Source: a virus. From it: a stretch of DNA of 61,488 nt. How positions within the stretch are numbered: the stretch's first letter is position 1; every line of letters starts with the position of its first letter. The notes beneath the pieces were generated by a model, which saw only the letters and a list, made by a program, of their open reading frames with translations, was not told the origin of the DNA and did no database searches. Of this stretch, positions 1 through 34,127 are shown piece after piece. The translations under genes were made by a program, and so were the position numbers. The stretch is from IMG/VR virus record IMGVR_UViG_3300024299_000013, positions 1 through 61,488 of that record. The stretch is one strand, 5' to 3'.

Positions 1-1733
1 ATGTTTCTGATTTAGAATTTGGTAATATTAAAAAGAACATTAAGGACTTTTTAAGAGACCAAGACACATTTACCGACTACGATTTCGAGGGTTCTGGTAT
101 GTCTGTAATGCTTGATGTAATGGCATATACTACACACTATATCGGATTCCATGCTAATATGGCAATCAACGAGTCGTTTTTAGATACGGCAACACTTAGA
201 AACTCGGTAGTATCTCACGCAAAGACTTTAGGATATATTCCAAAATCTGTCTCTTCTGCAGAGGCGATTGTTAAATTAACATTCAATACAACAGGACAAG
301 ATCCGACATTTATATCGGTTGATAAAAATACTACATTTACTTCAAATGTAAACGGTGTCTCTCAGCAGTTTGTTACATTAGAAACTGTTAATATCTTTCC
401 AGACGAAGGTGGTGAATTTTCAGGGGAAGTAAAGGTTCACCAAGGAACAATCAAGACGTTGTCGTGGACATACGATTCTGCTAAACTAGTCCAACAGTTT
501 TTGGTAATAGACCCTAAATGCGATAGAGAAACTATAAGTCTAACGGTTAATGCAATCCCTTGGGAACACAATCAAAACTTATCAGAATTGCTTCCTGGGT
601 CGTTGGCATACTTCATGCAAGAAGGGTTGGATTCTGTGACAGAATTATACTTCGGTAATGATATTTTTGGGAAAACCCCTAGAGATACTCATGAAATTGT
701 AGTCGAATATTTATCTACTAACGGAGAGCAAGGAAATTATATATCAACAGTTCAAGATCAAGTATTTTCTCTAGATGTTGCCATCGGTGGAATTTATGAT
801 TCAAATAGAGTTATTATTGAAACTGTAAATGTTTCAAACCTTGGGTCTATGGCAGAAACTACAGATTCTATCAGAAACACTTCACCTAAGTCTTATGAAA
901 GACAAAACCGTGCTGTAACTGCCGAAGACTACAAATCTATCCTTTTAGAAAAGTATCCTAACATCGATTCCATCTCAGTATGGGGTGGTGAAGACAACGA
1001 TCCTCCGCAATACGGTGCTGTGTTTATTTCAATTAAACCAAAGCACGGACTGGAGTTGTCTCCGTTGACAAAACAAAGTTTAACGAAGGATATATTATCT
1101 AAATATAATATGCTGGCAATTAACCCTATTATTGTTACTCCAGAATACACATATATTGATATTGATACTACAGTTAAATACAATCAATTAAAAACTACAT
1201 TATCTTCTGGTGAATTACAAGCACAAATTATGGAAGAAGTTAAGTCGTTTTTTGATAATGAAATTGGACAATTTAAAGTTAATTTAAGGTTCTCTAAGTT
1301 ATCACAAACGATAGATGAATCTAATGTATCTATTAGTAATAATACAACTGCGTTGAAAATATACAAAAAGTTCTATACTCAGGCATCTAACACTGTTGGT
1401 AACTACATATTCAAATTTAACAATAAATTAAACCCTGGATCTGCAGTATCTTCTGTTTTTGGTTCTACCGCAGATGGATCTCAAATGGCACTACTTGACG
1501 ACGGTCAAGGTAATATACTGCTTTATGATATTATTTCAGAAGGGTTTATCAGCACAACTCAAGGAACAATCGACTACGAAAACGGAGTCATTGAGTTGTC
1601 AGGATTCAACCCAGTTTTAGATATTAATACTGTTATCAGTTTATATGCTACTCCAAAAACTAATGACATTTCAACAGTAAGGAATAATTTACTCATACTA
1701 AATAGTACAAACGTTACATTAGAAACAATTTAA
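1..1733 (+). CDS. 6: Baseplate wedge protein gp6 (5' end outside window)
   Basis: Structural subunit of the baseplate wedge; in T4, gp6 dimers form the inner ring that joins neighbouring wedges. The frame is open to the left edge (codons from base 3), and the residues before the first ATG at 99 (SDLEFGNIKKNIKDFL) have the usual gp6 N-terminal character, so the gene starts upstream and 99 is an internal Met. The stretch THYIGFHANMAINESFLDTA followed by LRNSVVSHAKTLGYIP is the typical gp6 signature. About 577 residues are present against 660 in T4 gp6. It lies 15 bp upstream of the gp7-position giant gene, as expected from the T4 order 6-7-8. Family assignment is confident; only the start is missing. 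Confidence 0.9.
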   Translation, partial: VSDLEFGNIKKNIKDFLRDQDTFTDYDFEGSGMSVMLDVMAYTTHYIGFHANMAINESFLDTATLRNSVVSHAKTLGYIPKSVSSAEAIVKLTFNTTGQDPTFISVDKNTTFTSNVNGVSQQFVTLETVNIFPDEGGEFSGEVKVHQGTIKTLSWTYDSAKLVQQFLVIDPKCDRETISLTVNAIPWEHNQNLSELLPGSLAYFMQEGLDSVTELYFGNDIFGKTPRDTHEIVVEYLSTNGEQGNYISTVQDQVFSLDVAIGGIYDSNRVIIETVNVSNLGSMAETTDSIRNTSPKSYERQNRAVTAEDYKSILLEKYPNIDSISVWGGEDNDPPQYGAVFISIKPKHGLELSPLTKQSLTKDILSKYNMLAINPIIVTPEYTYIDIDTTVKYNQLKTTLSSGELQAQIMEEVKSFFDNEIGQFKVNLRFSKLSQTIDESNVSISNNTTALKIYKKFYTQASNTVGNYIFKFNNKLNPGSAVSSVFGSTADGSQMALLDDGQGNILLYDIISEGFISTTQGTIDYENGVIELSGFNPVLDINTVISLYATPKTNDISTVRNNLLILNSTNVTLETI

Positions 1734-1748
1734 TAAGGCATTACCACT

Positions 1749-4700
1749 ATGAGTAATAAACAATTCACTGAAAATCCTGCGAAGTTTCTTTCTATATTTG
1801 TGGAAAGAATGGTTCCGGACTATGTTCGCGAAGACCATCCTAAATTCATCGAGTTCATGCGAGCATATTTCGAATATCTCGAAAGGGAGACTGGGGTTAA
1901 TGGTGAATTGGGCGAATACAATCAAATCACAGACCTTATTGAGAATGTAGACATTGACCATGCATTGGATCAATTTATCCCGGAGTTTGAAAAGCAATAC
2001 CTCCCTTCTATTCCTCATGAGTCGATTGACCCAACAGTCAAAACAACAGATAAAGCATTTCTTGCCAAAAACATTCAAGATACATATCGAGAAAAAGGTA
2101 CAGTAAAAGCAATCGACTTCTTGTTTAGAAGAGACTTCAATACTGAAGCAAATATTATATACCCTAAACAGTACATGATGCAAGCATCTGGTTCTGTGTG
2201 GTATGAACCAAAATGGATTCTTGTGTCCGGCGACGCAGATAACATTTATCAATTATACGATAAGAAAATTGTGGGTCAAACATCAGGTGCAACTGCATTT
2301 GTCGATATCGACGTTTCGTTGAAGATGGCAGAATACGAAAAACTTTTGATTACGGAAGTTGAAGGTTCTTTTTTACAAGGCGAAGAAGTTTGGGAAGATG
2401 TTGGATCTAGTGGACGCGATCCAATTAAAGTTTCAGTAACGTCAGACGGCATTGTCGCTCCAGGTACTTGTTATTTAAACGGTGTTGCTTGGGCAAGTGA
2501 AACTCAAGGAAACGCACCAGAAACTAGAAACGATTGTGAAGCACACATATCTCAAGAAGGGGTAAATACTTCAGTTTGGTTACCTAATGGTTATTGGTTA
2601 GATTCTGGAGGTTTCCTTTCATCTGATAGAAAACTACAAGATAATAATTATTATCAAGACTTCTCGTATGTTGTACGTTCTGAAGTTCCCGTTCAATCTT
2701 ACCGTGAAGTATTAAAGAAATTAGTTCACCCTGTTGGACTTAAATTGTTTGCTGAATATATGTTCCAGTCAACGGTTGAGATGGACATTTCACTACCAGA
2801 AAACTTCTCAAAATACCTAATATCAATATTCACATATTTAGATGTTGGAATGGATATTTGGGATGCAGAAAGTCAGCAACACGGTACTCTCGGTCATGCA
2901 CATACTGGGTTTGGAGTATTCCTTGAAGAAGGGTTTAACAATAGAGTTGTTGAAATTCTTAAGAACCTTGACGTTAAAACAGGATTAGTACCTACAGAAT
3001 TGTGGGCATTCACTAACGACGTTGTTCATCAAGCACATCCAGAAGATCACTTCCAAATTTCAATAGCCAATCCTGACCCTCAATTCTTGGGTAATAGAGT
3101 ACAAGAAAAGTTATACACCATCAGTACAATGAATGATGACATTCGTAACTTTATGGATGCATTTCCAGAAACGTTGGTTCTTGAATTTGAACGTCAACTA
3201 CGTGTATTAGATTTCACGTCGTTACCTGGTGCGGCTGCAGTATTAGAAATTTTCGACAATATCAATAATGCCACAGACGGCGGAATGATTGGTTGTGAAG
3301 TTTGGGAATTACTTGTATCACAAGGTATGGAATCAATCCTTAAATGGATTGAATCTTTTGTTGCTGTTGCAGATTATGCTCCAGACACATCATATAAAAC
3401 GTGGGAATTGAATAGAGAAAATTCAAGTGTACAACACGTTTATGGGCTTGCTTGTGATATTATTGACTCAGTTCCTATTAGTTCATTCGCTATTGATTCT
3501 GGTGAAAGATTTCATGCTCATGGTGGAATAGGTGGATTTGCACCGTTGGTCGAAACTACAGTAACTAAAGGATTTGAATTACCTGTTATGAATGTGAACA
3601 TCTCTGCATTTCATACGCACTATTTTGACGGAACAGAAATTAAAAATTTAATTGTTCATGGCAAAGAAGTTACTGCTAGAGGAATTAATTATTCCGAAGC
3701 ACGAGCATTAATGAACGAGGATTATTTCGAAATTCCTCACATGCATGGTGCTAACCTTGTTTGTGGTGGTATTATGACTCCTCCGTTATGGGGTGACTGG
3801 GTCGATTCAGTTCAAGATCCTCGTTATAACGGTGTTGGAGAATGTTTCAATTCTATTTACGAAAATGAGACAGATTGTGTAGGTTTCTACGGAGACCCTA
3901 TGTTCTGGATGAGTCCAATGTGTTCTGATATGTCTTCTCCAGATGAAGCAACTTGTCACACAAACGAACAATCGTGGGGTTATTTCACACTTGCTGAATT
4001 ACCACCACTTAAAGGTCACGTATCTTACTTCGTTAAAGGAGAATTAGTAGACAGACAACGTGGTCGATATGCGGATCCTTTAACAAGAAAACAAGCAAGA
4101 CAATTGATTGACGGTGATATTGCTTCTGTAACACTTTACGATAACGTTGGTGCTTTAGATAACGACGGAAATCCAACATACGATGAATTTGAAATTACTA
4201 TTGGTGGAACAATTACAAACATTCGTGGAGAAATTACTAGTGGTCACTATCACGAATATACAGTAACTTACGACGAGGATTGGAAAACTAAACAAGATTG
4301 GCGTGGTGCTGATATGACTCATGGTTTTGTTTACACACCAGTAACTACTTGGTTGTGTTTCAACTACCAACCTTCGTTACCTGTAGATGAAACTATTATG
4401 GGTGGAATGGATTTCACTGGCGCTCAATGGCCACAAAATGTATTCATGGATGTTCCAGATTCATACGTTGGTGGATTCTTAAACAATCCTGATATCACAT
4501 TACAACACAATCAAGTATGGGCAGAAGACTTGAATCCTAATGTTGATGTGGTTGAAATTTATTCATCAAATCATATTGCGGAAGTTCCAGGTGTTGGAGC
4601 TACTGGCGATTTAATTGGTGTAGAAAATATCGGTGTTGATACTGACATTGCTACGATTGAAGCATATCCTGCCGATGACGCAGGTTCTGCTGATGCATTT

Positions 4701-7700
4701 ATTGCTATTGTTGACCAATCGGGTATTATTAAGTTGATTAACGAAACTGATAATTCACAAAGTACATTTATGGACTTGACTTCATTACAACATGTTATTG
4801 GATTAGGTCCGTTTGGGAATTACGACGAACGTGGTGTACTAGGTTTAGCATTCCATCCAGATTATGTCAATAATGGTAAATTCTACGTTTACTATATGAC
4901 AGAGCAAGGTGGAGGCACAGGTGCTTGGGGATTCCCATTATCTACGACGGTTATATCTGAATTTTCAACTCATATTAACGGAAGTGCTATTGTCTCGGCC
5001 GCAGGACATAACGTTGGTCAATTATCAACAGAAAGAGTATTGCTGACTATTCCACAACCAGACTTTAACCACAATGGTGGTGAGTTGTCATTTGGACCTG
5101 ATGGGTTCTTATATATCGGTTTAGGTGATGGTGGTTCTGCTGGTGACGTATCGTGGGCAAGTGGTCATGGAGGTCATGGTGCTTACGGTAATGCTCAGAA
5201 CCCTACAAACTTATTAGGTAACATTCTAAGAATTGATGTAACGGAAGATACTGTTAATAGTATGCCGTACACAATTCCTGCGGATAACCCATTCATTAAT
5301 TCAATTTATAAAGAAGGTCAACCAGAGGCAACACCGTTCAGACCAGAAATATTTGCTTATGGATTTAGAAATCCGTGGAGATTCTCTTTCGCACAAGACG
5401 GAAAGTTATGGTGTGCTGATGTTGGACAAGATAAATTCGAAGAAATTAATATCGTAGAAAAGGGTGGTAACTACGGTTGGAGAGTATTAGAAGCATATCA
5501 CGAATATGAAGAAGACCAAGCAATCATTGACCAAATTGCTATTGATTTAGGGTTTGAAACTACTCTTGCATATTTAAATTCATTGAAAGCCCCTATTCAC
5601 GAATATTCTCATGGAACTGGCATTTCAATTTTAGGTGGGTTTGTTTATAAAGGTTCAATTACCGCATTGCAAGGTAAATATATATTTGGCGATTGGTCAA
5701 CTTCTTGGACAGGTACAGACGGACATTTATACACATTGACTGAAAACTTTGATGGTAATTCAGCAAGTTTTAACGTATTAGCAAATGCTGTTAATGGAGC
5801 ATCACACGGACATACATTTTCATTGACAGGTTCTCAAGTACAATACTTAAAGGATAATCCTGGGTCAACAACTACTGCATTACAAACAGACACAGTTCAT
5901 GCTGAATTTTATACTCATTTATTCACGGTATTGTGGAGTTCATCTAATCAAGAATTTTTCATTGTTGGTCAAACTAACACTGAAGGACACGATGTATTAG
6001 AATTTATTGAATATGGTTCTGATTTATCATATGATAGAACCCCATTGTCGATTTGGGATCCTGTTACTGAAACAGTAGACTTGACTACTATGGGAGAATC
6101 AATTCTTACTATGGGAGAAACTAATTCTGGAGAAATTGTATTTTCTACTAGAGTTGGCATTGACACGTTCCGAGGGTCGGGTGCCAACAATACTAATTTG
6201 TATAAAATTACAAGTTCGTATAATACTGCAGATATACCTACCGCAAACACACAAATTCCAGCAATGGAAGTTGCACACGTACATGGATATGAAGTCACAT
6301 GGGATAAAGAAACTCAATCATTCAATTCTATAGAAGTATCAGATATTCAAATGGATAACTACGATGCGTTCTGGCCTGAGTGGACTTGGAACGATCCTGC
6401 ATCTCATATTCATCCAGTAGATACAGTTTGGTCTCATAAACTAGATCAACAAATACCTCTAGGTTCTTCTGCTGGATGGCATTTAAACCCAGAAACAAAC
6501 ACTTGGGAACCTTATGATATTGGAGCAGATACTGCTTGGGCACCTCCAGTTGTAGAAGAAGGTGGTTATGTATATATTTCAAACGCTCCTTCGATTTCAG
6601 TACAATCGTCAAATGAGTACGCTAAATCTGCACACGTTCATTATTTTAATGACGTTTATCTTGATACGTTTGGTGCTAATTATGGACGAAAGTCTTCTAC
6701 ACTTTCTAGGTTTGATGCTGAAGTGTTGGCAAATGATGCTGATCCATTAGCATTTCACACATTATACAGTTCAATTTCTGTCGAAAGTGATAAAAGACAT
6801 TATCACGAATACGAAATTTCATATTCAGTCGCTTCAAAACAATTTATTGCTATTGAAGTTGCTGAGTGGCACGAACCTACTTTAGGAACAGGCGAGTTCT
6901 TTAAATTAGACATGCAAACACACGAACATCCAATGACTGTAGACGGAATCATGACTGCAATCGGTTGGTCGGGATTGCCAGTATTTGATGCTCCGACAAT
7001 AAATATTTCAGGAGCACACAACTGGAACAATCTTACTGGTTCTCAGCCAGATCATTATCATTATTTTAATGGCGATGCATTAGACACAGCAGGTCCGAAT
7101 ACAGATAGAACTGCAATCGCTTTGAACAATGAAGAAACAACTAATTTGATGAACGGAACGTTTGACGAAGTTATTTTATATTCTTCTGTTTCTTCAGACC
7201 ATTATCATGGATATCGTGTTACGTACGATGGTCCGTCTAATACAATTAATGCTGAGGAAATTTCAGAATGGATAACGTCTGATGGAGAACAATACTTTTT
7301 ATATAACCCATCTAGACATAAACATGGAACAACTGTTAATGGACTTGGTTCAAGCACGGGTTACAATCAAACTATCACTTCTAATGATTTGCCTGATTTT
7401 GAGTCTCCATCTTATCCGTATCCCGGAGGTTCGCATCCACATTTTCACAACAACACTATTGTAGGACCTTTTCCTGACGGTCATGTAGATTATGCTCATG
7501 GGTTAAATGTAACAGAAGCACAACAACTGATTGACGGTGTGACCGATTCTGTAATTATTTACGATTCTATTGAGGGTGCTCATTTTCACGAATATGTAAT
7601 TAAGTGGGACGACCCTCAAGATAAGTTTTATGTTGAATCGTCAATAACTTGGATTCGTGGTGGTATTGAAGATGCATATCAAGATTCTGGAAAGTATTAT

Positions 7701-8810
7701 GTTTCGGTAGTATTGAATGAATCTGAAGGTCTTCATTGGCACAATTTAACAGTTGAATGGAATCCAGATGACGCTGCAACTCCGCAACAAACTGGAGGAG
7801 CAATTTATATTACTCGTACAGTTAATACCGATGAAGTTTTAGTTGGTTCTCCTCAGGTTGACGTAACAGAGCAAAGTACAGAATTAAACCCTGTAACAAC
7901 AAATTACACAGACACACCAAATGCTGGAGATACAACAGTAATTGTTACATATTCGGATCAAGTGAATACTACTGTCACAACAACAACTCCAACAACAACG
8001 ACAACGACGGTAACTACGTATTTGTCAAACGGAACAGACAGTGATATTGTATTGGCACCTGTCGTTACAAACGAAGTGACTCAAAATTCAACTTCTGATA
8101 TTGTTGAAGATTTAACTGAAAGAAAAACTTTTGTTAATGATGTATTACAAGCAAACAATCCTCCAGTTATTTGGATTGACCCAACGTTTATTGACGGAGA
8201 GGGGTCTCACGATCACTTACTATACTCAGGGTGTACACTTGATACCGACGGTGTCTTTGTTGGACGTATGTGTGAACCAATAAGTTTATCGCAAGCAAAT
8301 ATGTTGATTAATGCTCAAGACTCATCGTATGGTTTGGTTTTTTACGATTCACCAAACGGCAACATGGCACATTATCATAGTTATGCGTTGAAATTCAATC
8401 CAAATATTGGAGACGATGGTGCGTTTACTATTAGTGCTATTAGTCAATTTGATAGATTAGGTGGATCCGGAACAACAGTTCATAAATTTAAATTATCTGG
8501 TGGATTTCATACACACGATTATGTTATGACTCCAGAAGAATATGTTTTGCTTGTTACTGGTTCTAATATCACTATGCAACAACAAGATGCTATTCATGCT
8601 GAATTATATACGCACGATGTTACGGTATCTTATTCTGGTGGGGTTTATGGACTTGTTGGTCAGACAAGTGATTTTGATAATCATAACACAATAACGTATC
8701 AAGGTTCTGTTGCGTCGGGCGGTGAGTGGATTGAGACAGCAGTCCAACCCGGCGACCATATCCATACAACAATTATTGATGATTCAAACGTATGGCCAGT
8801 GCCAGTATAA
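1749..8810 (+). CDS. Giant baseplate/tail protein in gp7 position with GSDH propeller and HxH repeats (2353 aa)
   Basis: Virion structural protein between gp6 and gp8, the place of T4 gp7 (1032 aa); homology to gp7 is not established. Residues 1-350 form a module seen in marine T4-like phages (KFIEFMRAYFEYLE near the start; VLKKLVHPVGLKLFAEYMF near 325). Residues about 965-1488 are a glucose/sorbosone-dehydrogenase-type six-bladed propeller, interrupted at about 1352-1421 by a histidine-pair repeat. HxH-rich repeats also occupy about 377-390, 588-760, 1507-2011 and 2152-2350. A Thr-rich linker sits near 2073-2093. Cys-rich inserts lie near 238-280 and 696-750. No signal peptide is seen. Three TATAAATA boxes follow its end and would serve gp8. 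The structural role is inferred from the N-terminal module and position; the propeller is very clear. Confidence 0.75.
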   Translation: MSNKQFTENPAKFLSIFVERMVPDYVREDHPKFIEFMRAYFEYLERETGVNGELGEYNQITDLIENVDIDHALDQFIPEFEKQYLPSIPHESIDPTVKTTDKAFLAKNIQDTYREKGTVKAIDFLFRRDFNTEANIIYPKQYMMQASGSVWYEPKWILVSGDADNIYQLYDKKIVGQTSGATAFVDIDVSLKMAEYEKLLITEVEGSFLQGEEVWEDVGSSGRDPIKVSVTSDGIVAPGTCYLNGVAWASETQGNAPETRNDCEAHISQEGVNTSVWLPNGYWLDSGGFLSSDRKLQDNNYYQDFSYVVRSEVPVQSYREVLKKLVHPVGLKLFAEYMFQSTVEMDISLPENFSKYLISIFTYLDVGMDIWDAESQQHGTLGHAHTGFGVFLEEGFNNRVVEILKNLDVKTGLVPTELWAFTNDVVHQAHPEDHFQISIANPDPQFLGNRVQEKLYTISTMNDDIRNFMDAFPETLVLEFERQLRVLDFTSLPGAAAVLEIFDNINNATDGGMIGCEVWELLVSQGMESILKWIESFVAVADYAPDTSYKTWELNRENSSVQHVYGLACDIIDSVPISSFAIDSGERFHAHGGIGGFAPLVETTVTKGFELPVMNVNISAFHTHYFDGTEIKNLIVHGKEVTARGINYSEARALMNEDYFEIPHMHGANLVCGGIMTPPLWGDWVDSVQDPRYNGVGECFNSIYENETDCVGFYGDPMFWMSPMCSDMSSPDEATCHTNEQSWGYFTLAELPPLKGHVSYFVKGELVDRQRGRYADPLTRKQARQLIDGDIASVTLYDNVGALDNDGNPTYDEFEITIGGTITNIRGEITSGHYHEYTVTYDEDWKTKQDWRGADMTHGFVYTPVTTWLCFNYQPSLPVDETIMGGMDFTGAQWPQNVFMDVPDSYVGGFLNNPDITLQHNQVWAEDLNPNVDVVEIYSSNHIAEVPGVGATGDLIGVENIGVDTDIATIEAYPADDAGSADAFIAIVDQSGIIKLINETDNSQSTFMDLTSLQHVIGLGPFGNYDERGVLGLAFHPDYVNNGKFYVYYMTEQGGGTGAWGFPLSTTVISEFSTHINGSAIVSAAGHNVGQLSTERVLLTIPQPDFNHNGGELSFGPDGFLYIGLGDGGSAGDVSWASGHGGHGAYGNAQNPTNLLGNILRIDVTEDTVNSMPYTIPADNPFINSIYKEGQPEATPFRPEIFAYGFRNPWRFSFAQDGKLWCADVGQDKFEEINIVEKGGNYGWRVLEAYHEYEEDQAIIDQIAIDLGFETTLAYLNSLKAPIHEYSHGTGISILGGFVYKGSITALQGKYIFGDWSTSWTGTDGHLYTLTENFDGNSASFNVLANAVNGASHGHTFSLTGSQVQYLKDNPGSTTTALQTDTVHAEFYTHLFTVLWSSSNQEFFIVGQTNTEGHDVLEFIEYGSDLSYDRTPLSIWDPVTETVDLTTMGESILTMGETNSGEIVFSTRVGIDTFRGSGANNTNLYKITSSYNTADIPTANTQIPAMEVAHVHGYEVTWDKETQSFNSIEVSDIQMDNYDAFWPEWTWNDPASHIHPVDTVWSHKLDQQIPLGSSAGWHLNPETNTWEPYDIGADTAWAPPVVEEGGYVYISNAPSISVQSSNEYAKSAHVHYFNDVYLDTFGANYGRKSSTLSRFDAEVLANDADPLAFHTLYSSISVESDKRHYHEYEISYSVASKQFIAIEVAEWHEPTLGTGEFFKLDMQTHEHPMTVDGIMTAIGWSGLPVFDAPTINISGAHNWNNLTGSQPDHYHYFNGDALDTAGPNTDRTAIALNNEETTNLMNGTFDEVILYSSVSSDHYHGYRVTYDGPSNTINAEEISEWITSDGEQYFLYNPSRHKHGTTVNGLGSSTGYNQTITSNDLPDFESPSYPYPGGSHPHFHNNTIVGPFPDGHVDYAHGLNVTEAQQLIDGVTDSVIIYDSIEGAHFHEYVIKWDDPQDKFYVESSITWIRGGIEDAYQDSGKYYVSVVLNESEGLHWHNLTVEWNPDDAATPQQTGGAIYITRTVNTDEVLVGSPQVDVTEQSTELNPVTTNYTDTPNAGDTTVIVTYSDQVNTTVTTTTPTTTTTTVTTYLSNGTDSDIVLAPVVTNEVTQNSTSDIVEDLTERKTFVNDVLQANNPPVIWIDPTFIDGEGSHDHLLYSGCTLDTDGVFVGRMCEPISLSQANMLINAQDSSYGLVFYDSPNGNMAHYHSYALKFNPNIGDDGAFTISAISQFDRLGGSGTTVHKFKLSGGFHTHDYVMTPEEYVLLVTGSNITMQQQDAIHAELYTHDVTVSYSGGVYGLVGQTSDFDNHNTITYQGSVASGGEWIETAVQPGDHIHTTIIDDSNVWPVPV
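4640..6210 (+). other. GSDH (PQQ-type glucose/sorbosone dehydrogenase) beta-propeller domain inside the 2353-aa protein
   Basis: Domain-level feature, residues about 965-1488. Visible family blocks in order: DERGVLGLAFHPDY (Glu at 1027), FNHNGGELSFGPDGFLYIGL followed by GDGG, GNAQN then LLGNILRIDV, GFRNPWRFSF (Arg1207, Asn1208), DVGQDKFEEIN, GGNYGW, ILGGFVYKG, GKYIFGDW, and a last-blade block near 1446-1488. His1108 and Asp1127 are 19 residues apart, as are catalytic His144 and Asp163 of soluble glucose dehydrogenase. The Arg-Asn pair that contacts PQQ is kept. Catalysis is not shown: the family includes non-enzymatic members such as HHIP-like proteins. Confidence 0.88.
5803..6015 (+). repeat. 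Histidine-pair (HxH) repeat inserted in the last propeller blade
   Basis: Residues about 1352-1421. Order: SHGHTFSLTG, a short helix-like stretch, a His and TH within HAEFYTHLFTVLW, then a final GH. It separates the blade-5/6 block ending in LYTLTENFDG from the final propeller block beginning at TMGESILTMG. The closest relatives in the window are the copies at 8503-8740 and 21290-21480. Confidence 0.7.
6265..7770 (+). repeat. Tandem HxH repeats (about four copies) in the 2353-aa protein
   Basis: Protein-level repeats of about 100-130 residues. Copies begin near 6268 (second half only: HVHGYEVTW), 6628 (AHVHYF ... HYHEYEISYS ... THEHP), 7042 (DHYHYF ... HYHGYRVTYD ... RHKHG) and 7432 (SHPHFH ... 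HFHEYVIKWD ... LHWH). Each full copy holds an HxH near the start, a helix with an (E/Q)AxxL core, an HxHxY-beta-strand ending in YD or WD, and a closing HxH. The DNA of the copies has diverged, so these are old duplications. Confidence 0.75.
8200..8795 (+). repeat. C-terminal HxH repeats of the 2353-aa protein
   Basis: Two further units, beginning at SHDHLLYSG and at FHTHDYVMTPEEY. The second has the same HAELYTHDVTVSY strand as the unit inside the propeller (HAEFYTHLFTVLW), and both carry a following GQT motif, which argues for direct duplication. The protein ends with GDHIHTTII. Confidence 0.7.
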
Positions 8811-8896: not shown

Positions 8897-9910
8897 ATGG
8901 GTGCAATCGTAACCAGTAAATTTAGAACTCAAAACTTGATGGTATTCATTGACCAGTTCAAAACGACAGGTAATGCATTAACAGACAACTTCTTGTATTT
9001 GGGATTTGGTAGAAGCGAACCGTGGGCTAATGATGCTCAAGGTTTTGATGAAGGTAATGGTAGTTTTACTCTTCCAGATCCTTTAGACGAAGACGAAAGT
9101 CAATATTGGATAGATATTGTCGGAGCTAAACGTATCCAGAATGACGATATTTCTCCTGTACTTCCTCGTACAGATTGGGATAAGGGTGACCCGTATGCCT
9201 TTGATGGTGATGCCGATAACGGTATTGCTGGAATTTCAGAGCCTGGTCGTTCTTTCGTATCAAAAACTGGATTACATTCAGTAGTAATGAATTCTGAATA
9301 TAGAGTTTACATGTGTGTTGGTGAACCAGCAACTGGAAAATGTTACACAGGTGGTTTATATGACAACGGTCAATCTACATCACGTAATGCATGTGAATCG
9401 ACTTCTGGTGGTCTTTGGTTACCGACTGGTGCTTCTGAAGAGCCACAAGGTTTCACTGGAGATGCTTCTGGTGCAACATCGCAAAATATTACTACTGCTG
9501 ATAATTATGTGTGGAAGTTCTTATACAAATTAGAATTAAACGACATTATTAACTCAACTACTAATGATTGGATGCCAGTTATTTATGGTGATGCTGTTGG
9601 AGCATCTACTGAGCAATATACTCATGGTGATCCAGATGCGATTTTCTCTGCAAAATGCCATCACGGATTGATTCACGTTCGCCTTGAAACTAGTGATGGT
9701 TTCCCAGATAACGACGACTTCCGTCAAATTGGTTTATTGCGTAACCCTGAGTTGACTGCTGACGGTTCTGCAGCTCAATCTGCAGTATATCCAGACGCAG
9801 CTAATTCATTAGCAGATGATACTGGACAATTGATTTATCTTGAAAATCGTCGTGCTATTACACGTGCTCCGGATCAAATTGAAGACCTAAAATTGGTTGT
9901 TGAATTCTAA
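8897..9910 (+). CDS. 8: Baseplate wedge protein gp8
   Basis: Baseplate wedge subunit; T4 gp8 is 334 aa and this is 337 aa. The N-terminus AIVTSKFRTQNLMVF, then LGFGRSEPWAND, the block YVWKFLYKLELNDIIN, and the C-terminal RQIGLLRNPEL with TGQLIYLENRRAI are the conserved gp8 blocks in order. A Cys-Gly-Trp motif at about residues 149-175 (GKCYTGG ... ACESTSGGLW) is the same kind found in other structural proteins of this window and, from memory, in T4 gp8 itself. The start follows an AAAGGAG ribosome site. Late promoter boxes precede it and two hairpins follow it. Confidence 0.95.
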   Translation: MGAIVTSKFRTQNLMVFIDQFKTTGNALTDNFLYLGFGRSEPWANDAQGFDEGNGSFTLPDPLDEDESQYWIDIVGAKRIQNDDISPVLPRTDWDKGDPYAFDGDADNGIAGISEPGRSFVSKTGLHSVVMNSEYRVYMCVGEPATGKCYTGGLYDNGQSTSRNACESTSGGLWLPTGASEEPQGFTGDASGATSQNITTADNYVWKFLYKLELNDIINSTTNDWMPVIYGDAVGASTEQYTHGDPDAIFSAKCHHGLIHVRLETSDGFPDNDDFRQIGLLRNPELTADGSAAQSAVYPDAANSLADDTGQLIYLENRRAITRAPDQIEDLKLVVEF

Positions 9911-10009: not shown

Positions 10010-13000
10010 ATGGCGATTAACTTTAATACCGCACCCTATTATGACGATTTCAACGCAGACGATAAGTTCTTGCAAATATTGTTTAATCCTGGACGTGCAG
10101 TACAAGCTCGTGAATTAACTCAAATTCAATCAATCCTTCAGAACCAATTAAGTTCTGGTGCCAATCACATTTTCAAAAATGGCTCACCGACGGTTGGTGC
10201 AGAGTTGTCTCTGAATATTAGAAATTATATTAAACTTGCTTCGGCAGACGCTTCTTGGAATGGTCGATATGTATATGGTGTTGAGAGTTTGGCAATCGCC
10301 CAGATAGTTCAGCTACACGACGATGAAACTCAACCGATCTATTACATCAAACCACTATCTGGTAAGTTTGCAGATAGTGAACAAATTGATACATATGATA
10401 CTGTGTGTAATGGTGGATTTGACCCTGAAGACCCAACGGTATGTCAAGATAATAGTTTTTACAATGCTACATTAACCTATAAGACAGGAACTTTAGTTGG
10501 TTCTGGAAAAGGAATGGAAGCAACTATTAATAATGGTATTTATTATGTTAGTGGGCATTTTGTTCCAGTCCTCGCACAGACAATATTCTTAGATTACACA
10601 AACGACACTCCTACTCATGATGTGGGTCTTGATATCGAAGAAACTATTATTGAAGCAACGGTCGACCCTAGATTATTAGACCCTGCGTCTGGTTTTTATA
10701 ACCAAAATGCTCCTGGAGCAGATAGGTATTCTATAAACCTGAAGTTGTCTAAGAGAGAAGATTCGGTTGACGGTACAGATTTCATCGAGATTCTTAAAGT
10801 TGCTTCCGGAGTTATCAGCACAACAGTCGAACGCACAGCATATGCCGATGTTATTAAAGAATTGGCACAAAGGACGTACGACGAATCTGGGGACTATACT
10901 ACATCTCATTTTCCTATTGAAATTAAAGATGCTGGAGAAAACTATACAATCAAAATTAATCCAGGTAAAGCATATGTTCGTGGGTACGAGAACGAGTTAT
11001 TAGTTCCTATTGAAGTTAGTGCACCGAAGGCAAGAGAAACTCGTACAATTAACGCAGACCACATACAAGTTGAATTTGGTCCATATTTTGAAATAGAAAA
11101 CGTTAATGATATCGAAGGTGTGTTTGATATTCTACATAAAGAAAAGATATCATTTATAACAAACGTTGATGGTAGTGGTATTCCAAATTATGGTGGAACA
11201 CTCGCAGAACAAACAATAGTTGGTCCTACAGATAGAAGAATTACACATTTAACAAAATTTGGTAATATGTACCGAATATACGTTGACAGCGATTTTGGTT
11301 TGGACGTTATTGCTCCTGCAACATATATTGTTTCTCAGACAAACCCTGATATATTTGTAAAATTATACAGACCTACTGGTGAAAGTGTTCAAAAAGGAAC
11401 ATTTAGACCTTGGATTTATCAATTACAAAGAATGACTTCTTCTGTAACTGCAGGACAAACTAACTATTCAACCCAAAAAGATTTCGTTGTTACAATAAAC
11501 GGTTCTAGTGAAACAATTAACAGTGCATACGCAAATATGCACTGGGAAAGAATCATTTATATTTACGACAAAACTTTAGGAACTATTATTCCTGAGTTTG
11601 GAACAGTATCTTCTGGAGTTGTTTGGCAGGCAGACTATACTGGAAACGAAAACGTACAGATTAGTATATTGAACCAGTCAGATTCAACATCAAACACGAC
11701 ATTACATTCTCATGACCTAGCAATTATGTCTGATATGTATATTTCAAACGCAAATTGGAAGAATATTTCTTATACTACGTTTACGGAAGATGTTACATTA
11801 ACAGCAAATAACGAATTAATATTAAATCCAGGTGTTACTGAAATTGTATCTATTACCGCACCAGATTTAAGTGACGCAACAGAAGACTTTTGGTTTTTTG
11901 AAGGTGAGTATGACACCGAACTTAAAGATGCATATGTTCAGTGGTCACATCCTACAAACGACCCGGCTCCTGGTGCCACATATTCTGTAACGTTTAAAGC
12001 ATATACATACGGTGCTTCTACAAACGCATCTATGTTTACAGTTAATTCGTACACAGATGCTGGTATTAATTACGGTGATATTGGTGCTTATGTTGGATAT
12101 TCTGAACCTACAAATTATAGATTAGCAGATACGTTGGACTTTAGATGTACTTCGGGTAATTTCTTATCTGGTAACTATTTGCCACTACCTTCTTCTAACA
12201 TTACAGTTTCGTATTCATACTACCTTCCTCGTGCTGATAGACTAACTATCAGCACTGATGGAGAATTCTCAATTAAACAAGGGTTTTCATCAGAAGGGGC
12301 ATTGTTGCCAACAGAATTGCCGTCAGAAATGACCCTTTATAATTTCTATATTCCTCCATACACTTACGATGTTAAAAACATTTCTAAAACGTATGTAGAT
12401 AACAAAAATTATAAAATGAGTGATTTGCGTGATATGGATGAACGTATTTCTAGTTTAGAATATTACACATCATTGAATTTGCTTGAGCAGGATACTGCAT
12501 CAATGCAAGTCCTTGACGAAAATGGGTTAGACCGTTACAAAAACGGTATGCTTGTAGATTCATTTACAGATCACGGTGTTGGAGATATTTCAAATAAAGA
12601 ATATTTCATGTCCGTATATCCAGAAGCAGGTATTGCTACTACACCATTCACAATGAAAGGTTTTGATTTTGAGGTTGGAGACACAACTGGAATGCAAAAC
12701 AACGGTCGTACGTTGACATTAGCATACGACATCGTAGAAGGTTGGATTAGTCAATCGTTTGCATCTTCTATCCTTAATTTGAACCCGTTTGCCAAATTAT
12801 CTTGGATCGGTTTCTTAGAAATTAGTCCAAATTCTGATACTTGGTTTGAAGAAACTTATGCTCCGTCAGTTATTGTTCAAAACGATAACAATAATAACGT
12901 TTTAGCACAAGTCGAAGCATTTGGAACTCAAACCCGTTGGGGATCTTGGGCAACTACTTGGACTGGTTGGAGTGATACTGGTGGCAAAAAAGACTTTGTT

Positions 13001-15499
13001 GCAGGTTCTACAGAAACAAAGTGGAGAGGTAGAACTATTGGTGGTTATGCTGGGCGTGTTGATGTTAATCAAATTGACGGACATGTAGCTGGTAACGGAC
13101 ATACAAATATTAAAGGATTTACGTTAGACAAAATTTGGAATCAGGGGTGGATGGCTACTAATACTTGGGTCGGTAATGGCGCAACTATTTTTAGACGACC
13201 TTCTAAAATGTTCAAATTGTGGAAAGATACTGTAACTAAAAATGCAACTTGGAAACAAGACCAAACAAGAACTTCTACTTCAGTAAGAACTGGAACTAAG
13301 ACATGGAAAGAAACTAAAGACATCAGAACAACAATTGGTGATAAGCAAATCGATGCTTCGTCAATCAATTGGATGCGTTCTGTTGATATTACATTAACTG
13401 CAGATAAAATGCGTCCAGAAACACAGTTGCATTTTGTATTTGATGGCATTAACGTAGACGCGTACTGCAGGCCTGCAGACGGAGAATACGGTGACGCAGT
13501 CAGAACAGATAGTGCAGGAAGAGTAAGAGACGCAATATTCACTATTCCGTCAGAAAAAGAAGGAATAAGGTTTAATACTGGTCGAAGAACTTTACAAGTG
13601 CAAGACGCATATGATGAAACTATGACTACACAAACGTCTGCCGTCTTCACTTCTGCTGGTACTTTGAATACAAGACAAAGAACAATTCTTAGTACATTAG
13701 AATCTGTAACTAAAAGTGAAACAGTTAATGGTTCAAAGAATGGTACTGAAGGTAAAACAATACAACGTGGTGGTGGTACAACTACTTCTTCTACATCTAA
13801 AACTATTCGTGAATACTACGATCCTGTTGCAGAATCATTTATGGTGTCAAATCAAGAAGGTGGAGTATTTATCGATTCAATCGATTTATATTTCTATTCT
13901 AAAGACACAGGAGAAGTTCCTGTAAGGTGCGAGATCCGTGAAATGATGAACGGTTATCCTATGTTTGATGCTCTGCCTATGGCAAGCACGTTTGTATATC
14001 CTGATGATGTTTATACTTCAGATAATGGAACTGCTAATACAAGGTTTACGTTTGCGGATCCAATTTACCTGATGAACGGAACTGAATACTGTTTCGTTGT
14101 TATTTCTGATTCATTAGAATATAATGTTTGGATTTCTGAATTAGGTGATAGAGATAGAGCTACTGGTACATATATTTCAACTCAACCTTTCTTAGGTTCT
14201 ATGTTCACTTCGCAAAATAACTCGACTTGGACGCCAGAACAAACCAAAGACCTTAAATTCCAATTGAATAAGTGTAAATTTGAAACTAATTCTGTTGCGA
14301 CGGTTCAGTATAACATGAAATCGTTCGAAGGAATTCATTCGGCAACTGGATTTACTCCAAATTTCCAACCTATGAAATTATCAGGAACTGATGTAAATTA
14401 TTCAATGGTAGTAAATTCTGATATACAAAATATCATGGCAAATATTGAAGACGGTGTTGATGAAGCATTTGAGTCGGTTACTTCGCTAGACGGGTCTCAG
14501 ACGATCGCAAGTGGTTATGCATATACTCCTCTTTCAATCATTAGTGAACTGTCAACCACAAATGAAAACATCTCTCCAGTATTTAATAAAGAAAGGTTAA
14601 GTATTATAACTAGAAATAATGTTGTTCATGATGGTGCGACTGAGGGTCACAATTCTGCCGGAGTTTATGTATCTAGAATGGTACAACTATCTAATCCAGC
14701 AGAAGATCTAAACATGTGGTTGTCTATTCAAGAAAATCCAGAAACTTATGTTAAAGTATTTTACGATACTGGAGAAACTATTCCTCGTTATATTGATATA
14801 GATTTCAATAGTAATGTTGAAACTATGGGGTATTATTCTGTAAATGACTTTGAACAAGAATATGCGTTTGTTTATAACACTTCTCCTGAAGACCAAATTA
14901 CTGCAGGTTCGCCTACGCAGTCGTCATGGAATGGTACTGTAAGTGCATACGATTCAAGTTTGTATATCGATGGAGACAATGATCCAGAAAATTTAACCAG
15001 AATGCATGTTGTGGATATTTCTAATATGAAGTCCGTATCTCAAGGTTCTTGGGTTTCTAAATACGATTTAAACGGAATCGGAAAAGATACAGGAAATTTA
15101 GCAAACTATGCTCTTGGTGAAATGTGGTTTGGAACAGCAGGAAACAATTTAGATAAGAAAGTGTACAGAAAAGTTACTCTACAAGACAACTCTGTCGGCA
15201 AAGAAGAAGTTCCAATATTACAAATCTCGTCACTGGTTGACGCAGAACATGTTGATTTTGTAAATGGATTGTCGGTTATAGAAGAACCTGCGATCACTTG
15301 GAGAGAAATGATGGATACTGGTGCTTCTAGTTCTAATTCTAACATTAATACTGATATGGAGTTTTTAGAGCACACATTTAAACCTTTGAAAAAAATAACA
15401 AAAGAGTTTAGCAGTTTTAGAATTAAAATTGAAATGTACACCACTAATGCTGTGTTTATGCCTGCTATTCGTGAGTTACGTGTATTAGCAGTAACATAG
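10010..15499 (+). CDS. DUF4815-type structural protein, 1829 aa
   Basis: Large virion protein following gp8. The N-terminus (NTAPYYDDFNADDKFLQILF, then GRAVQARELTQIQSILQNQ and GANHIFKNGS) matches the family annotated DUF4815 in many marine T4-like phages, usually a baseplate or tail-fibre structural protein of unknown role. The central part is Trp-rich (about residues 985-1090) and is followed by a Lys/Thr-rich stretch. The C-terminal third holds beta-rich blocks such as DPVAESFMV and GTEYCFVVISDS, seen in these long proteins. No HxH repeat or cupredoxin motif was seen, unlike its neighbours. The ATG at 10010 fits the conserved N-terminus; the ribosome site is weak. The exact place in the virion is unknown. 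Confidence 0.75.
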   Translation: MAINFNTAPYYDDFNADDKFLQILFNPGRAVQARELTQIQSILQNQLSSGANHIFKNGSPTVGAELSLNIRNYIKLASADASWNGRYVYGVESLAIAQIVQLHDDETQPIYYIKPLSGKFADSEQIDTYDTVCNGGFDPEDPTVCQDNSFYNATLTYKTGTLVGSGKGMEATINNGIYYVSGHFVPVLAQTIFLDYTNDTPTHDVGLDIEETIIEATVDPRLLDPASGFYNQNAPGADRYSINLKLSKREDSVDGTDFIEILKVASGVISTTVERTAYADVIKELAQRTYDESGDYTTSHFPIEIKDAGENYTIKINPGKAYVRGYENELLVPIEVSAPKARETRTINADHIQVEFGPYFEIENVNDIEGVFDILHKEKISFITNVDGSGIPNYGGTLAEQTIVGPTDRRITHLTKFGNMYRIYVDSDFGLDVIAPATYIVSQTNPDIFVKLYRPTGESVQKGTFRPWIYQLQRMTSSVTAGQTNYSTQKDFVVTINGSSETINSAYANMHWERIIYIYDKTLGTIIPEFGTVSSGVVWQADYTGNENVQISILNQSDSTSNTTLHSHDLAIMSDMYISNANWKNISYTTFTEDVTLTANNELILNPGVTEIVSITAPDLSDATEDFWFFEGEYDTELKDAYVQWSHPTNDPAPGATYSVTFKAYTYGASTNASMFTVNSYTDAGINYGDIGAYVGYSEPTNYRLADTLDFRCTSGNFLSGNYLPLPSSNITVSYSYYLPRADRLTISTDGEFSIKQGFSSEGALLPTELPSEMTLYNFYIPPYTYDVKNISKTYVDNKNYKMSDLRDMDERISSLEYYTSLNLLEQDTASMQVLDENGLDRYKNGMLVDSFTDHGVGDISNKEYFMSVYPEAGIATTPFTMKGFDFEVGDTTGMQNNGRTLTLAYDIVEGWISQSFASSILNLNPFAKLSWIGFLEISPNSDTWFEETYAPSVIVQNDNNNNVLAQVEAFGTQTRWGSWATTWTGWSDTGGKKDFVAGSTETKWRGRTIGGYAGRVDVNQIDGHVAGNGHTNIKGFTLDKIWNQGWMATNTWVGNGATIFRRPSKMFKLWKDTVTKNATWKQDQTRTSTSVRTGTKTWKETKDIRTTIGDKQIDASSINWMRSVDITLTADKMRPETQLHFVFDGINVDAYCRPADGEYGDAVRTDSAGRVRDAIFTIPSEKEGIRFNTGRRTLQVQDAYDETMTTQTSAVFTSAGTLNTRQRTILSTLESVTKSETVNGSKNGTEGKTIQRGGGTTTSSTSKTIREYYDPVAESFMVSNQEGGVFIDSIDLYFYSKDTGEVPVRCEIREMMNGYPMFDALPMASTFVYPDDVYTSDNGTANTRFTFADPIYLMNGTEYCFVVISDSLEYNVWISELGDRDRATGTYISTQPFLGSMFTSQNNSTWTPEQTKDLKFQLNKCKFETNSVATVQYNMKSFEGIHSATGFTPNFQPMKLSGTDVNYSMVVNSDIQNIMANIEDGVDEAFESVTSLDGSQTIASGYAYTPLSIISELSTTNENISPVFNKERLSIITRNNVVHDGATEGHNSAGVYVSRMVQLSNPAEDLNMWLSIQENPETYVKVFYDTGETIPRYIDIDFNSNVETMGYYSVNDFEQEYAFVYNTSPEDQITAGSPTQSSWNGTVSAYDSSLYIDGDNDPENLTRMHVVDISNMKSVSQGSWVSKYDLNGIGKDTGNLANYALGEMWFGTAGNNLDKKVYRKVTLQDNSVGKEEVPILQISSLVDAEHVDFVNGLSVIEEPAITWREMMDTGASSSNSNINTDMEFLEHTFKPLKKITKEFSSFRIKIEMYTTNAVFMPAIRELRVLAVT

Positions 15500-15940: not shown

Positions 15941-18900
15941 ATGTCTTATCAAACTTACACACTTGCTGAATTAGCAACGATTGAACAGCAAAAAGAAGAT
16001 TACATTGATTCGTTAAATATTAAATTATCGGATCCAGGGCTTCAAGTAAAAGATTTAGCTTTGATGTTGAAATCGCTTGAGATTATGGACAATATGGAAC
16101 ACATGTCTTCGTTCAAGACGTTCATTGTAAATATTGCAGCCAGATCGGCGCAATTCGTATCTCCTACAGAATTGATTGATAATGGTGGACTAGCAACAAA
16201 ATACCTTTCTGACAACTTAGTTCAAAATGCTGGATTTGAGTCTGATGCAATGGAAATTGAATTGTGTAAACAATCTACTTTTGATTCTGGTATTGATTTA
16301 AGTTCTCCTTGGAATAATGGTATTGCATATAAATTCGACACATTAGTTGCTGAAGGTACTGCAATCATTTCATCATATTCTGATGGTGAAAATGATGCCG
16401 TAGCATGGTTTGACGTTAATTTAAAACCAAACACTCAATACAAATTTTCTTATGACTTAATCGTAAATAACGTAAATTGGGACTTGCCTTGGGGTGGTCG
16501 AAATATGGTTGACATTCCTTCAATCGATGAAGCAATTTTTTCTGAAACTGGTGGTGGTCCTGATTCGCAACAATACGTTGTATCTGTTATCGAAGATGCT
16601 AATATGGTTCGTCCAACGTGTGACGGTGTAATTGCACAGTGGGTTGATGGTGGTATTGACCAAATGGAAGCAGATTGTTTAGCTGCTTCTGGTACTTGGG
16701 TGCTTGGAAACGTGAACGATCCAAATACACATCAACACACTATTGTTCCTTATCATTTAGAAGCACGTGAAGGTGATATTATTCATTTCACAAACCCATC
16801 AAACAACGTTTTGGTACACAATGCTGTATCCGACGACAATGTTTCATTCACATCTCCAGACTTGAATCCAGGCGAATCTTGGTCTTGGGTTGTTGATGGA
16901 TATCACGACTTATATTTCCATTGTACGTTCCACCCTCTTGAAGAAGGTAGAATGACAACTAAAACTAATCATAGATATGTTTATAATGTTGACCACGGAT
17001 TAAATCCTGGCGATACTATTAAGATTCCAGTGAATTATGGAACTATGGAACCAATTCCAAACTTATCAAATTCATACGATATCAATATTCCTATGAGCAA
17101 CGTTTGTTCGTCTGTTGGTGGTGCTGGTGACCAAACTGTTGTAGATTCTTTATATCACGATTTATCGTTAAATCAATTAGTTACATTTCAATCAGGTGAA
17201 ATTGAATTAGACCCTGATGCGGCTGCTCCTGTATCAGTAGAATTTTCTACAGATAATGAAATCCAACCAGCCGTGGCTAGTGTTAATATTACTGCTGGTT
17301 CTGTATATAACATAACATTAATCAACGGAGGGTTATATTCAGAAGTTCCTTCATTATCTATCGTGGGTGGTGGAGGTTATGGTGCTACTGCAGATATTGA
17401 ATTTGAAGGCAATATAACTTCAATCACACTAGACAATGACGAAGTAACAGGACTTCCTGGTGGAGAAGGGTACATTACAGTTCCTGAAGTTCAGATTTCA
17501 GGAGGATTCCCAACAACACCAGCAACAGCAGTTGCAACGATTGCTGGAGGAAAGGTAACAGGGATTACTATTACTAATCCAGGCTCCGGATACAAATCTT
17601 CTCCGACGGTTATTCTGGTTGGTTCTGGAAACCAAGACGCAGGTGGACTACCATTAGACCCCACGATGTCTGCAGTGGCAACGGCGACAATGGAAGGAAC
17701 AATTACATCATTAACATTAACCAATGGTGGTCTTGCGTATGGATCTACTGGTGGTGTTGGTGCAGGTGAAAGACAATGGGAAACATATGTAGTATCTGCT
17801 GTAACAAAAGGTTCTGAAAGAATCGACGTATTTTTAGACGACGTTAATGCAATGGGACATGTGCATACTTTAACAATCACAACATCTCAATACGACACAA
17901 TTAAAACAGGAACTCCTACCTTAATTGACACGACTGCAGACGATTCTGGTCATACTCATACATGTACATTCGATTGGAATCCTATACTTAACAACGGTGA
18001 TGGTGGATTGGTTCTTGTTGGAATGACCGGAACTCACACTCACAATTTAGATGAGTATTTTGAAATTTCTGGTGGTACGAAAATTGAATTAGTCAACTTT
18101 GGACATTATCATGAAGTATTGATTACCGAAGCAGACGAAGCAACATTAAAAGCAGGTATCATAACTGTTACTGGTGAAAACCCAGACGGAACTAATGCCC
18201 ATGACGGAAGTGGTGTCACTATCACAAGAACTTCTGATTTTGGTACTTCAGATCCTCAGCATTTCCATACTGTTGAATTCGGTTGTATTGATGCAGCTAA
18301 CGATTTATATGTTATTACCGCTATCGACCAACATATTCATGACTTTGGTCGTGTTTGGTATCCTGGATCTAACTTGTTTGGTATTTCTCAATATGATTCT
18401 TCTATCGACGGTGGTGACGATTTAAATCCAACATCAATATCAAATCCATTTACAGAATTATCAGGTTTTGTTAAAAAACGTAGAGGTATTAATTCAGCAG
18501 ATCATGGATTGATTCCTGGACAAAGAATCCATTACACTAACGTTTACAATGGTATTCATCACGGTAACACGAATTACTGGGTTAAAAATGTTATTGACAA
18601 AGATAATTTTGTATTAACAGAATCTACTGTTTATCCATTAGCAAATGCTCCTGGCACTACTCCAACGACGTTTAATGTAATCGAGCAATATACTGTTGTT
18701 TCTGACTTAGCATCTTACAGATTCCAAGTTGAACGTGATATTACTAATCACATTGGTTCTGCTTATGTAGAAGGTGTTCAATTAGAATGGTCACGACCTA
18801 ACACAGTTCATTCAAACCAACACGGTTTGACAGTAGGTGATGTTGTACAATTACCATCAGGTGCGCAGGACTATACTCCGTCTGAACAACCAGGCGCTAT

Positions 18901-31434: not shown

Positions 31435-31477
31435 AGTAATACATCAACATTAAACAATATAAGAAGGGGAATTTATA

Positions 31478-31537
31478 GTGAACGCAAATTGCATTGTGAA
31501 TTTTATTATTAAAGACAAGGTTAGGAGAAGAAAATGA
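31478..31537 (+). CDS. Possible 19-codon leader peptide upstream of hldD
   Basis: A GTG start behind AAGAAGGGGA encodes MNANCIVNFIIKDKVRRRK and its TGA overlaps the hldD ATG (ATGA). The spacing suits translational coupling, but so short a frame may be chance. Confidence 0.25.
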   Translation: MNANCIVNFIIKDKVRRRK

Positions 31538-32526: not shown

Positions 32527-32872
32527 TCTGGCTGTCTCCAGGGCGAATACGGTAGTTATCTTCAACTGAATCTTTTGATGAAACTTCCATAATTACTGTA
32601 TCGTCTTCCAAACAAGTTACTTGATGGGGGGTGAATGGTTCAATACGAATCTTCTCCCCTTTTTCAATTATAACAAATGATGTTGAAGAATCACTCAAGT
32701 CCATCAATTCAACTTTGATACTACCACTTAGGATTTTCCAAGTTTCGTCTTTCACTTTATGAAAATGCATAGAGGACTTATGTCCTTTCTTTTCAAAGTG
32801 CAACTCTTTCATACAATATAAATCATTACTTTCAATGATTTCTTCGTGTCCCCAACCCTTTTTAATTATCAT
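32519..32872 (-). CDS. Small cupin, sugar-isomerase-like (117 aa)
   Basis: Single-domain cupin. The metal motif is visible as HFHKVKDETWKILSG (His-x-His-x4-Glu-x6-Gly), with the second motif around PFTPHQV. The opening GWGHEEIIESNDLYCMKELH resembles small phosphomannose-isomerase/WxcM-like sugar cupins. It overlaps the end of hldE by 11 bases and is co-directional with it, so it is probably translated from the hldE mRNA and acts on a heptose or related sugar. Its 3' end overlaps hldD tail to tail. Enzymatic role is inferred; a binding or regulatory cupin remains possible. Confidence 0.7.
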   Translation of the reverse strand: MIIKKGWGHEEIIESNDLYCMKELHFEKKGHKSSMHFHKVKDETWKILSGSIKVELMDLSDSSTSFVIIEKGEKIRIEPFTPHQVTCLEDDTVIMEVSSKDSVEDNYRIRPGDSQTI

Positions 32873-34109: not shown

Positions 34110-34127
34110 TCGCAAGCTCTTATTTTA

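Follow-up and report, generated by a model that had tools for sequence, protein, structure and literature searches.

The gp7 protein of phage T4 is a monomer present in six copies per tail and located in the baseplate pins (PMC3004832), and wedge proteins are encoded at the corresponding position in cyanophages and in phages Melnitz and Cr30; the gene order is gp6-gp7-gp8. The beta-propellers of the glucose/sorbosone dehydrogenase (GSDH) family, PF07995, are known from other settings, among them soluble glucose dehydrogenase (sGDH; PDB 1c9u), the Escherichia coli aldose sugar dehydrogenase YliI/Asd (2g8s), giant-virus proteins and Hedgehog-interacting protein (HHIP; 2wfx, 3ho5 and 7pgm). The last is an animal signalling antagonist with a cysteine-rich domain (CRD) and epidermal growth factor (EGF) repeats that works by binding proteins and heparin, and whose key loop, an insertion in blade 3 of the propeller, serves as a ligand to a zinc ion in the partner protein (PMC8660895). 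In the complete 61,488-base IMG/VR virus record IMGVR_UViG_3300024299_000013, hereafter the window, a predicted propeller of the PF07995 type is fused into the gp7-type wedge, or 'pin', protein, an arrangement found in a clade of T4-like phages known only from uncultured material. The terminases of methylophage Melnitz, Pelagibacter phage Mosig and T4-like cyanophages show 54-56% identity to that of the window, on which basis the record is assigned to a T4-like phage without known isolate or host; the kinship of these terminase relatives indicates a source that was probably marine.

The propeller lies within a 2353-amino-acid (aa) open reading frame (ORF) whose N-terminal part is homologous to the wedge domain of the gp7-position proteins of Cr30, Melnitz, the cyanophages and a related contig (L117). 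This part matches PF23786 (36.9 bits; cut-off 27), phrog_17744 (2.6e-53 over aa 12-227) and phrog_4406 and phrog_2885 (over aa 282-355), so that both the gene order gp6-gp7-gp8 and the homologous wedge domain that mark a T4-type gp7 are present. The domain, its fusion and its place between gp6 and gp8 are directly established, and the elements of the arrangement are as follows:

3-1733, plus strand: gp6-type baseplate wedge protein, running off the window at its 5' end (PF21379 8.4e-25, PF21387 4.3e-8, phrog_219 1e-155)
1749-8810, plus strand: gp7-position baseplate wedge protein with propeller, 2353 aa, a single ATG-to-stop ORF between gp6 and gp8
1749-2813, plus strand: wedge domain, aa 1-355, with conserved parts at aa ~1-251 and ~281-355 and a variable insertion point between them
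4641-6212, plus strand: HHIP-like GSDH (PF07995) six-bladed propeller, aa ~965-1488, from Pfam, PDB profile search, AlphaFold2 (AF2) model and Foldseek
8897-9910, plus strand: gp8-type baseplate wedge protein (PF09215 6.4e-34)

The original prediction, made from the letters of the window, had placed a PF07995 propeller at residues 965-1490 of a baseplate protein, and this was borne out. PF07995 matches aa 1016-1275 of the ORF (E 4.5e-29; 102.2 bits against a gathering cut-off of 25), a cut-off also passed by the corresponding domains of two further loci (L232 and L008). Structure prediction and profile comparison with sGDH structures, which the original prediction had proposed as checks, likewise recovered the propeller: the AF2 model showed the family beta-propeller fold with moderate confidence (predicted TM-score, pTM, 0.70; mean predicted local distance difference test, pLDDT, 67), and its best Foldseek match in the PDB was HHIP (6.6e-22), followed by sGDH and Asd, with E-values for HHIP and sGDH propellers between 1e-22 and 1e-14. 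The profile search of the PDB returned sGDH at 4e-25, but HHIP more strongly at 1e-40, such that human HHIP ranks first among solved structures in both sequence and fold, ahead of sGDH and Asd. The sGDH-specific model TIGR03606 was not reached (71 bits against a cut-off of 434.55), and E. coli Asd is also below it (109.6). In the tree the domain fell within a group of cellular sequences of the HHIP-like type and apart from sGDH and Asd, and a 'GED..GE' block replaces the RIRDV block. These sequence comparisons place the domain in the HHIP-like branch of PF07995; its ultimate origin is probably cellular.

With HHIP, the phage domain has in common the His and Asp of the former active site, a C-terminal 'GFGED..GE' block in place of the PQQ (pyrroloquinoline quinone) arginine block, and an insertion within the propeller, which in HHIP is functional; however, HHIP has His-Asp where the phage domain keeps Arg-Asn, no Pfam match to the HHIP-type CRD or EGF repeats was found anywhere in the 2353 aa protein, and the phage propeller is instead part of a wedge protein and carries a His-rich insertion. 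Bacterial and archaeal HHIP-like proteins, such as those of Dyadobacter soli (L022) and Leptospiraceae (L023), show 39-41% local identity to the phage domain, share its invariant Glu, His, Asp, Arg-Asn, Gln and Glu set, and are likewise without equivalents of sGDH Arg406 and Arg408. The two nearest cellular relatives are stand-alone proteins of 409-440 aa without wedge domain and, in the alignment, without the nested His-rich module; the cellular relatives are named 'PQQ-dependent sugar dehydrogenase' by NCBI. The same propeller type occurs in GSDH proteins of giant viruses (Pithovirus LCPAC202 and LCPAC104, Marseillevirus LCMAC102; Foldseek 1e-22 to 5e-12), but these belong to viruses of eukaryotes and are not components of a contractile-tail baseplate.

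Since the sGDH reference sequence is identical to PDB 1c9u over 454/454 residues, sGDH residue numbering could be used for comparison of the active site, with the C-terminal part of sGDH aligned separately from the rest of the domain. His1108 and Asp1127 were found 19 residues apart and Arg1207-Asn1208 within GFRNPW, as the original prediction had described, but the His/Asp spacing that it had read as a signature of sGDH is not diagnostic, because HHIP shares it. The claim that all conserved blocks of the family occur in order was not confirmed: the Pfam match spans only profile positions 43-248 of 332, and in the C-terminal block the phage domain has ESILTMGE, compared with RYRDV in sGDH and RIRDV in E. 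coli Asd. The codons concerned are the following, the residues of the first three entries being the same in all 15 viral and all 48 cellular relatives aligned:

5070-5072, plus strand: His1108, equivalent of sGDH catalytic His144; also His in HHIP
5127-5129, plus strand: Asp1127, equivalent of sGDH Asp163
5367-5372, plus strand: Arg1207-Asn1208, equivalent of sGDH Arg228-Asn229; His-Asp in HHIP
5715-5717, plus strand: Thr1323, aligned with sGDH Lys377, which is not kept; the alignment is unsure in that column
6096-6104, plus strand: Ser1450-Ile-Leu1452, aligned with sGDH Arg406-Tyr-Arg408; the PQQ-carboxylate block is not kept

Arg406 takes part in holding the carboxylates of PQQ in sGDH. The same carboxylates are held by Lys377 and Arg408 (PMC6881789), and the PQQ ketones are acted on by Arg228, His144 and Asn229 (PMC6881810). 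On the ketone side, the catalytic His and the Arg-Asn pair are present in the phage domain, as are the Asp163 equivalent and that of the Ca2+-loop Gly247, the latter likewise without variation across the 15 viral and 48 cellular relatives; all of these are shared with sGDH and Asd, apart from Asp163, which is Glu in Asd. On the carboxylate side, Lys377, Arg406 and Arg408 correspond to Thr, Ser and Leu in the window domain; every viral member of the HHIP-like branch, and almost every cellular member sampled, has other residues in their place, with no arginine among the common residues of the sampled cellular relatives in the Arg406 and Arg408 columns. Gln76 of sGDH is Glu in all 15 viral and 48 cellular relatives, and Pro248 of the Ca2+ loop, where the ligands are main-chain carbonyls, is an invariant Gln in all relatives aligned. 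With His, Asp and Arg-Asn kept and the carboxylate contacts replaced, the domain thus retains the reactive half of the site without the recognised anchoring half. The retention of active-site residues put forward in the original prediction therefore stood for the equivalents of His144, Asp163, Arg228, Asn229 and Gly247, but a PQQ site as in soluble glucose dehydrogenase did not, given the replaced carboxylate contacts, HHIP as nearest solved structure and the TIGR03606 score.

A comparison of alignment columns, in which a column was taken as invariant at 95% or more in 49 cellular relatives and as kept at 95% or more of 23 viral domains, showed that 45/52 columns invariant in the cellular relatives are also kept in the viral ones. 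The polar or charged residues kept are Glu1027, Asn1107, His1108, Asn1109, Asp1118, Asp1127, Asp1133, Gln1150, Arg1161, Glu1200, Arg1207, Asn1208, Asp1224, Gln1227, Glu1231, Asn1241 and Glu1248. These comprise all the invariant polar and charged columns listed, those lost being hydrophobic, glycine, alanine or proline, and both the conservation of the domain and the retention of its invariant polar residues are direct observations. As Arg-Asn is lost in HHIP, the phage domain appears closer than HHIP to the putative active form.

Twenty loci with the domain were found in a scan of viral contigs and 35 in a wider profile-based scan. Of these 35, 33 fall in the window's clade (57-100% identical, L007 being a contig identical to the window), one belongs to a more distant phage (L232) and one is a stand-alone protein of 521 aa (L233), which was not counted among the 34 loci encoding the wedge-protein fusion. 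Within the clade, gp7 is ~2400-3100 aa long where the gene is complete, the domain is internal, and gp6 and gp8 mostly flank the gene where the contig reaches. Two near-identical gp7 genes from two datasets differ in length (L018, 1931 aa; L021, 2679 aa), the former having a frame break downstream of the propeller that is either a sequencing error or real. L232 represents a quite different phage (gp6 32% and gp8 28% identity), in which the propeller is placed right at the C-terminal end of gp7 (2861 aa). Close relatives of the window without the propeller also exist (L116-L118; gp6 63-64%, gp8 73-74% identity), with a gp7 of only 711-714 aa, and the gp7 proteins of Melnitz (896 aa) and Cr30 (767 aa), unlike that of the window, are also without it.

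The viral domains other than that of L232 formed one clade (support 100) among cellular HHIP-like sequences. L232 may or may not represent an independent acquisition: a first tree had grouped it with cellular sequences, but an approximately unbiased (AU) test does not reject a single viral origin (p 0.62). The propeller is under purifying selection (ratio of nonsynonymous to synonymous substitutions, dN/dS, 0.10-0.21), and its mean identity is like that of gp6 and the wedge domain, indicating an about equal evolutionary rate. However, between L004 and L008 the propeller is 89% identical, compared with 70% for gp6 and 56% for the wedge, which suggests module exchange. Chimeric assembly was ruled out, because numerous contigs, drawn from separate IMG/VR datasets, encode the same fusion and have gp6 and gp8 beside it, as was recent contamination by host DNA, given that the GC content of the propeller (0.377) equals that of gp7 (0.380) and that the viral domains form one clade.

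No credible match to the propeller exists among the isolate phages in INPHARED, the domain is not covered by any PHROG family, and no phage baseplate with such a domain was found in the open-licence literature searched, in agreement with the earlier statement that no established case was known. GSDH matches in 'Acinetobacter phage MD-2021a' and in one faecal scaffold look bacterial by annotation and domain content and were not counted; the 'Acinetobacter phage MD-2021a' contigs CAKLQH02 and CAKLQF02 carry yliI-type aldose sugar dehydrogenase genes and are probably mislabelled bacterial DNA.

The propeller is both interrupted and flanked by His-rich modules, none of which had been mentioned in the original prediction:

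3504-4616, plus strand: N-terminal stretch with His-rich module matches, aa ~586-956, with HxH motifs; hidden Markov model (HMM) matches, partly weak, at aa 622-662, 767-804 and 829-846
5793-6032, plus strand: His-rich module nested in the propeller, aa 1349-1428 (~80 aa), in viral members
6249-8807, plus strand: C-terminal array of His-rich modules of ~105 aa each (HxH...HYH), recognised by the HMM at aa 1509-1558, 1626-1735, 1765-1868, 1896-1970 and 2154-2220

The ~105 aa modules, with their conserved HxH/HYH motifs, are related to the nested one, which the aligned bacterial relatives do not have and which is not apparent in L232. An AF2 model of the module reached a pTM of 0.51 and gave no PDB match with E < 0.001, and no known family was found for it; metal binding by these modules is a guess. 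Assignment to the YHYH family (PF14240) was rejected, there being no YHYH Pfam match in the window protein and no HxH motif in the YHYH domain of Synechococcus phage S-B43. In that cyanophage, the gp7-position protein (L034:4964-11449) has its YHYH domain (PF14240, 5.2e-30) instead of a propeller, and a related phage encodes a 2721 aa gp7-position wedge protein (L153:9425-17587) whose FG-GAP_2 repeats may form a different type of propeller in this same protein. Across 34 wedge-protein relatives, one each was found with a GSDH, FG-GAP_2, Laminin_G_3 or YHYH domain, and the gp7-position protein therefore looks like a site presenting exchangeable domains.

On balance, the reading given a modest preference is that the conserved pocket recognises a host surface glycan or similar small ligand, the propeller projecting from the periphery of the baseplate. 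If gp7 is present in one copy per wedge as in T4, there would be six such propellers per virion, displayed next to the arrays of His-rich modules, and a pocket comprising Glu1027, His1108, Asp1127, Arg1207-Asn1208, Gln1227 and Glu1231 would bind the ligand during adsorption. Presence in the virion and surface exposure are predicted from gene position and homology, as is the class of ligand. In support, HHIP is the closest fold and acts as a binder of proteins and heparin, and an exchangeable surface-module site fits with this role. Several considerations weigh against it, namely the moderate confidence of the AF2 model, the existence of close relatives without the propeller, which means that the domain is not essential for infection in the lineage, and the strict retention of the pocket, which could reflect catalysis and not binding only. 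In addition, HHIP binds its partners via inserted loops and surface patches and not via the old active-site pocket, making it a loose analogy for glycan binding.

An active PQQ- and Ca-dependent sugar dehydrogenase on the virion, which would draw PQQ from its environment and oxidise sugars of the host surface or of seawater, is possible but doubtful. In its favour, there is no variation in the catalytic His, Asp and Arg-Asn or in the Ca-loop Gly, every polar residue that is invariant in the cellular relatives is kept, and His1288 in the fifth-blade loop could stand in for a lost basic contact; however, the three carboxylate contacts are replaced throughout the viral branch, TIGR03606 is far under its cut-off, the nearest solved relatives are the non-enzymatic HHIP structures, and PQQ binding by cellular members of the branch is a matter of annotation, with no experiment found in the literature searched. 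The fungal AA12 enzyme CcSDH is PQQ-dependent though several sGDH contacts are missing (PMC4133262, PMC6881789), the same loss having been pointed out for HHIP by the authors of the CcSDH study (PMC4133262), and PQQ can for this reason still be envisaged in the phage domain. Binding of a sugar or surface is nevertheless safer to propose than a proven enzyme, sugar oxidation by the virion being put forward as a hypothesis. It is improbable that the propeller is a mere spacer or scaffold in a long pin protein, without a ligand of its own: the great differences in length among gp7-position proteins, the propeller-less relatives and the loss of enzyme function from the same fold in HHIP would fit, but a mere spacer need not keep an intact polar pocket, and here the polar invariants are kept in at least 95% of the 23 viral domains while several hydrophobic and glycine invariants have changed. 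A role after adsorption or in assembly, for example by binding a metal or a partner protein jointly with the His-rich modules inside and beside the propeller, appears very unlikely; the zinc-coordinating blade-3 loop of HHIP (PMC8660895), the His-rich module nested in the clade propellers and the repeated HxH pairs point towards it, but the module fold has no solved counterpart, metal binding is conjectural and the L232 propeller shows no nested module.

Elsewhere in the window, two further giant structural-type ORFs adjoin the wedge genes, one at 10010-15499 (1829 aa, DUF4815) and the other at 15941-22972 (2343 aa, without any Pfam match). A sugar-nucleotide cluster at 29662-34115 comprises genes for a NodU-like carbamoyltransferase (29662-31434) and an HldD-like ADP-heptose 6-epimerase (31534-32526; TIGR02197 274.9 bits, cut-off 274.6), together with a minus-strand gene for an HldE-like heptose kinase/adenylyltransferase (32862-34115). 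Its gene content suggests phage-directed change of the heptose in the host lipopolysaccharide (LPS) core.

The propeller is a known fold in a new place, its type being already known in some giant viruses and its baseplate location being new. A cellular sugar-dehydrogenase-type propeller appears to have become fixed in the baseplate of an apparently widespread uncultured phage group, whose relatives carry other beta-propeller, lectin-like or YHYH domains in the gp7-position protein, pointing to a host-facing module site in T4-like phages, in which receptor work is usually credited to the tail fibres. That these phages carry an enzymatically active HHIP-like dehydrogenase on the baseplate, oxidising host-surface sugars in adsorption or injection, is rather unlikely, but would, if true, make a redox enzyme a part of the virion. 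Natural relatives with and without the propeller provide a testable case, and if an activity were found it would have consequences for a large bacterial branch that is still uncharacterised and owes its name, 'PQQ-dependent sugar dehydrogenase', solely to homology.

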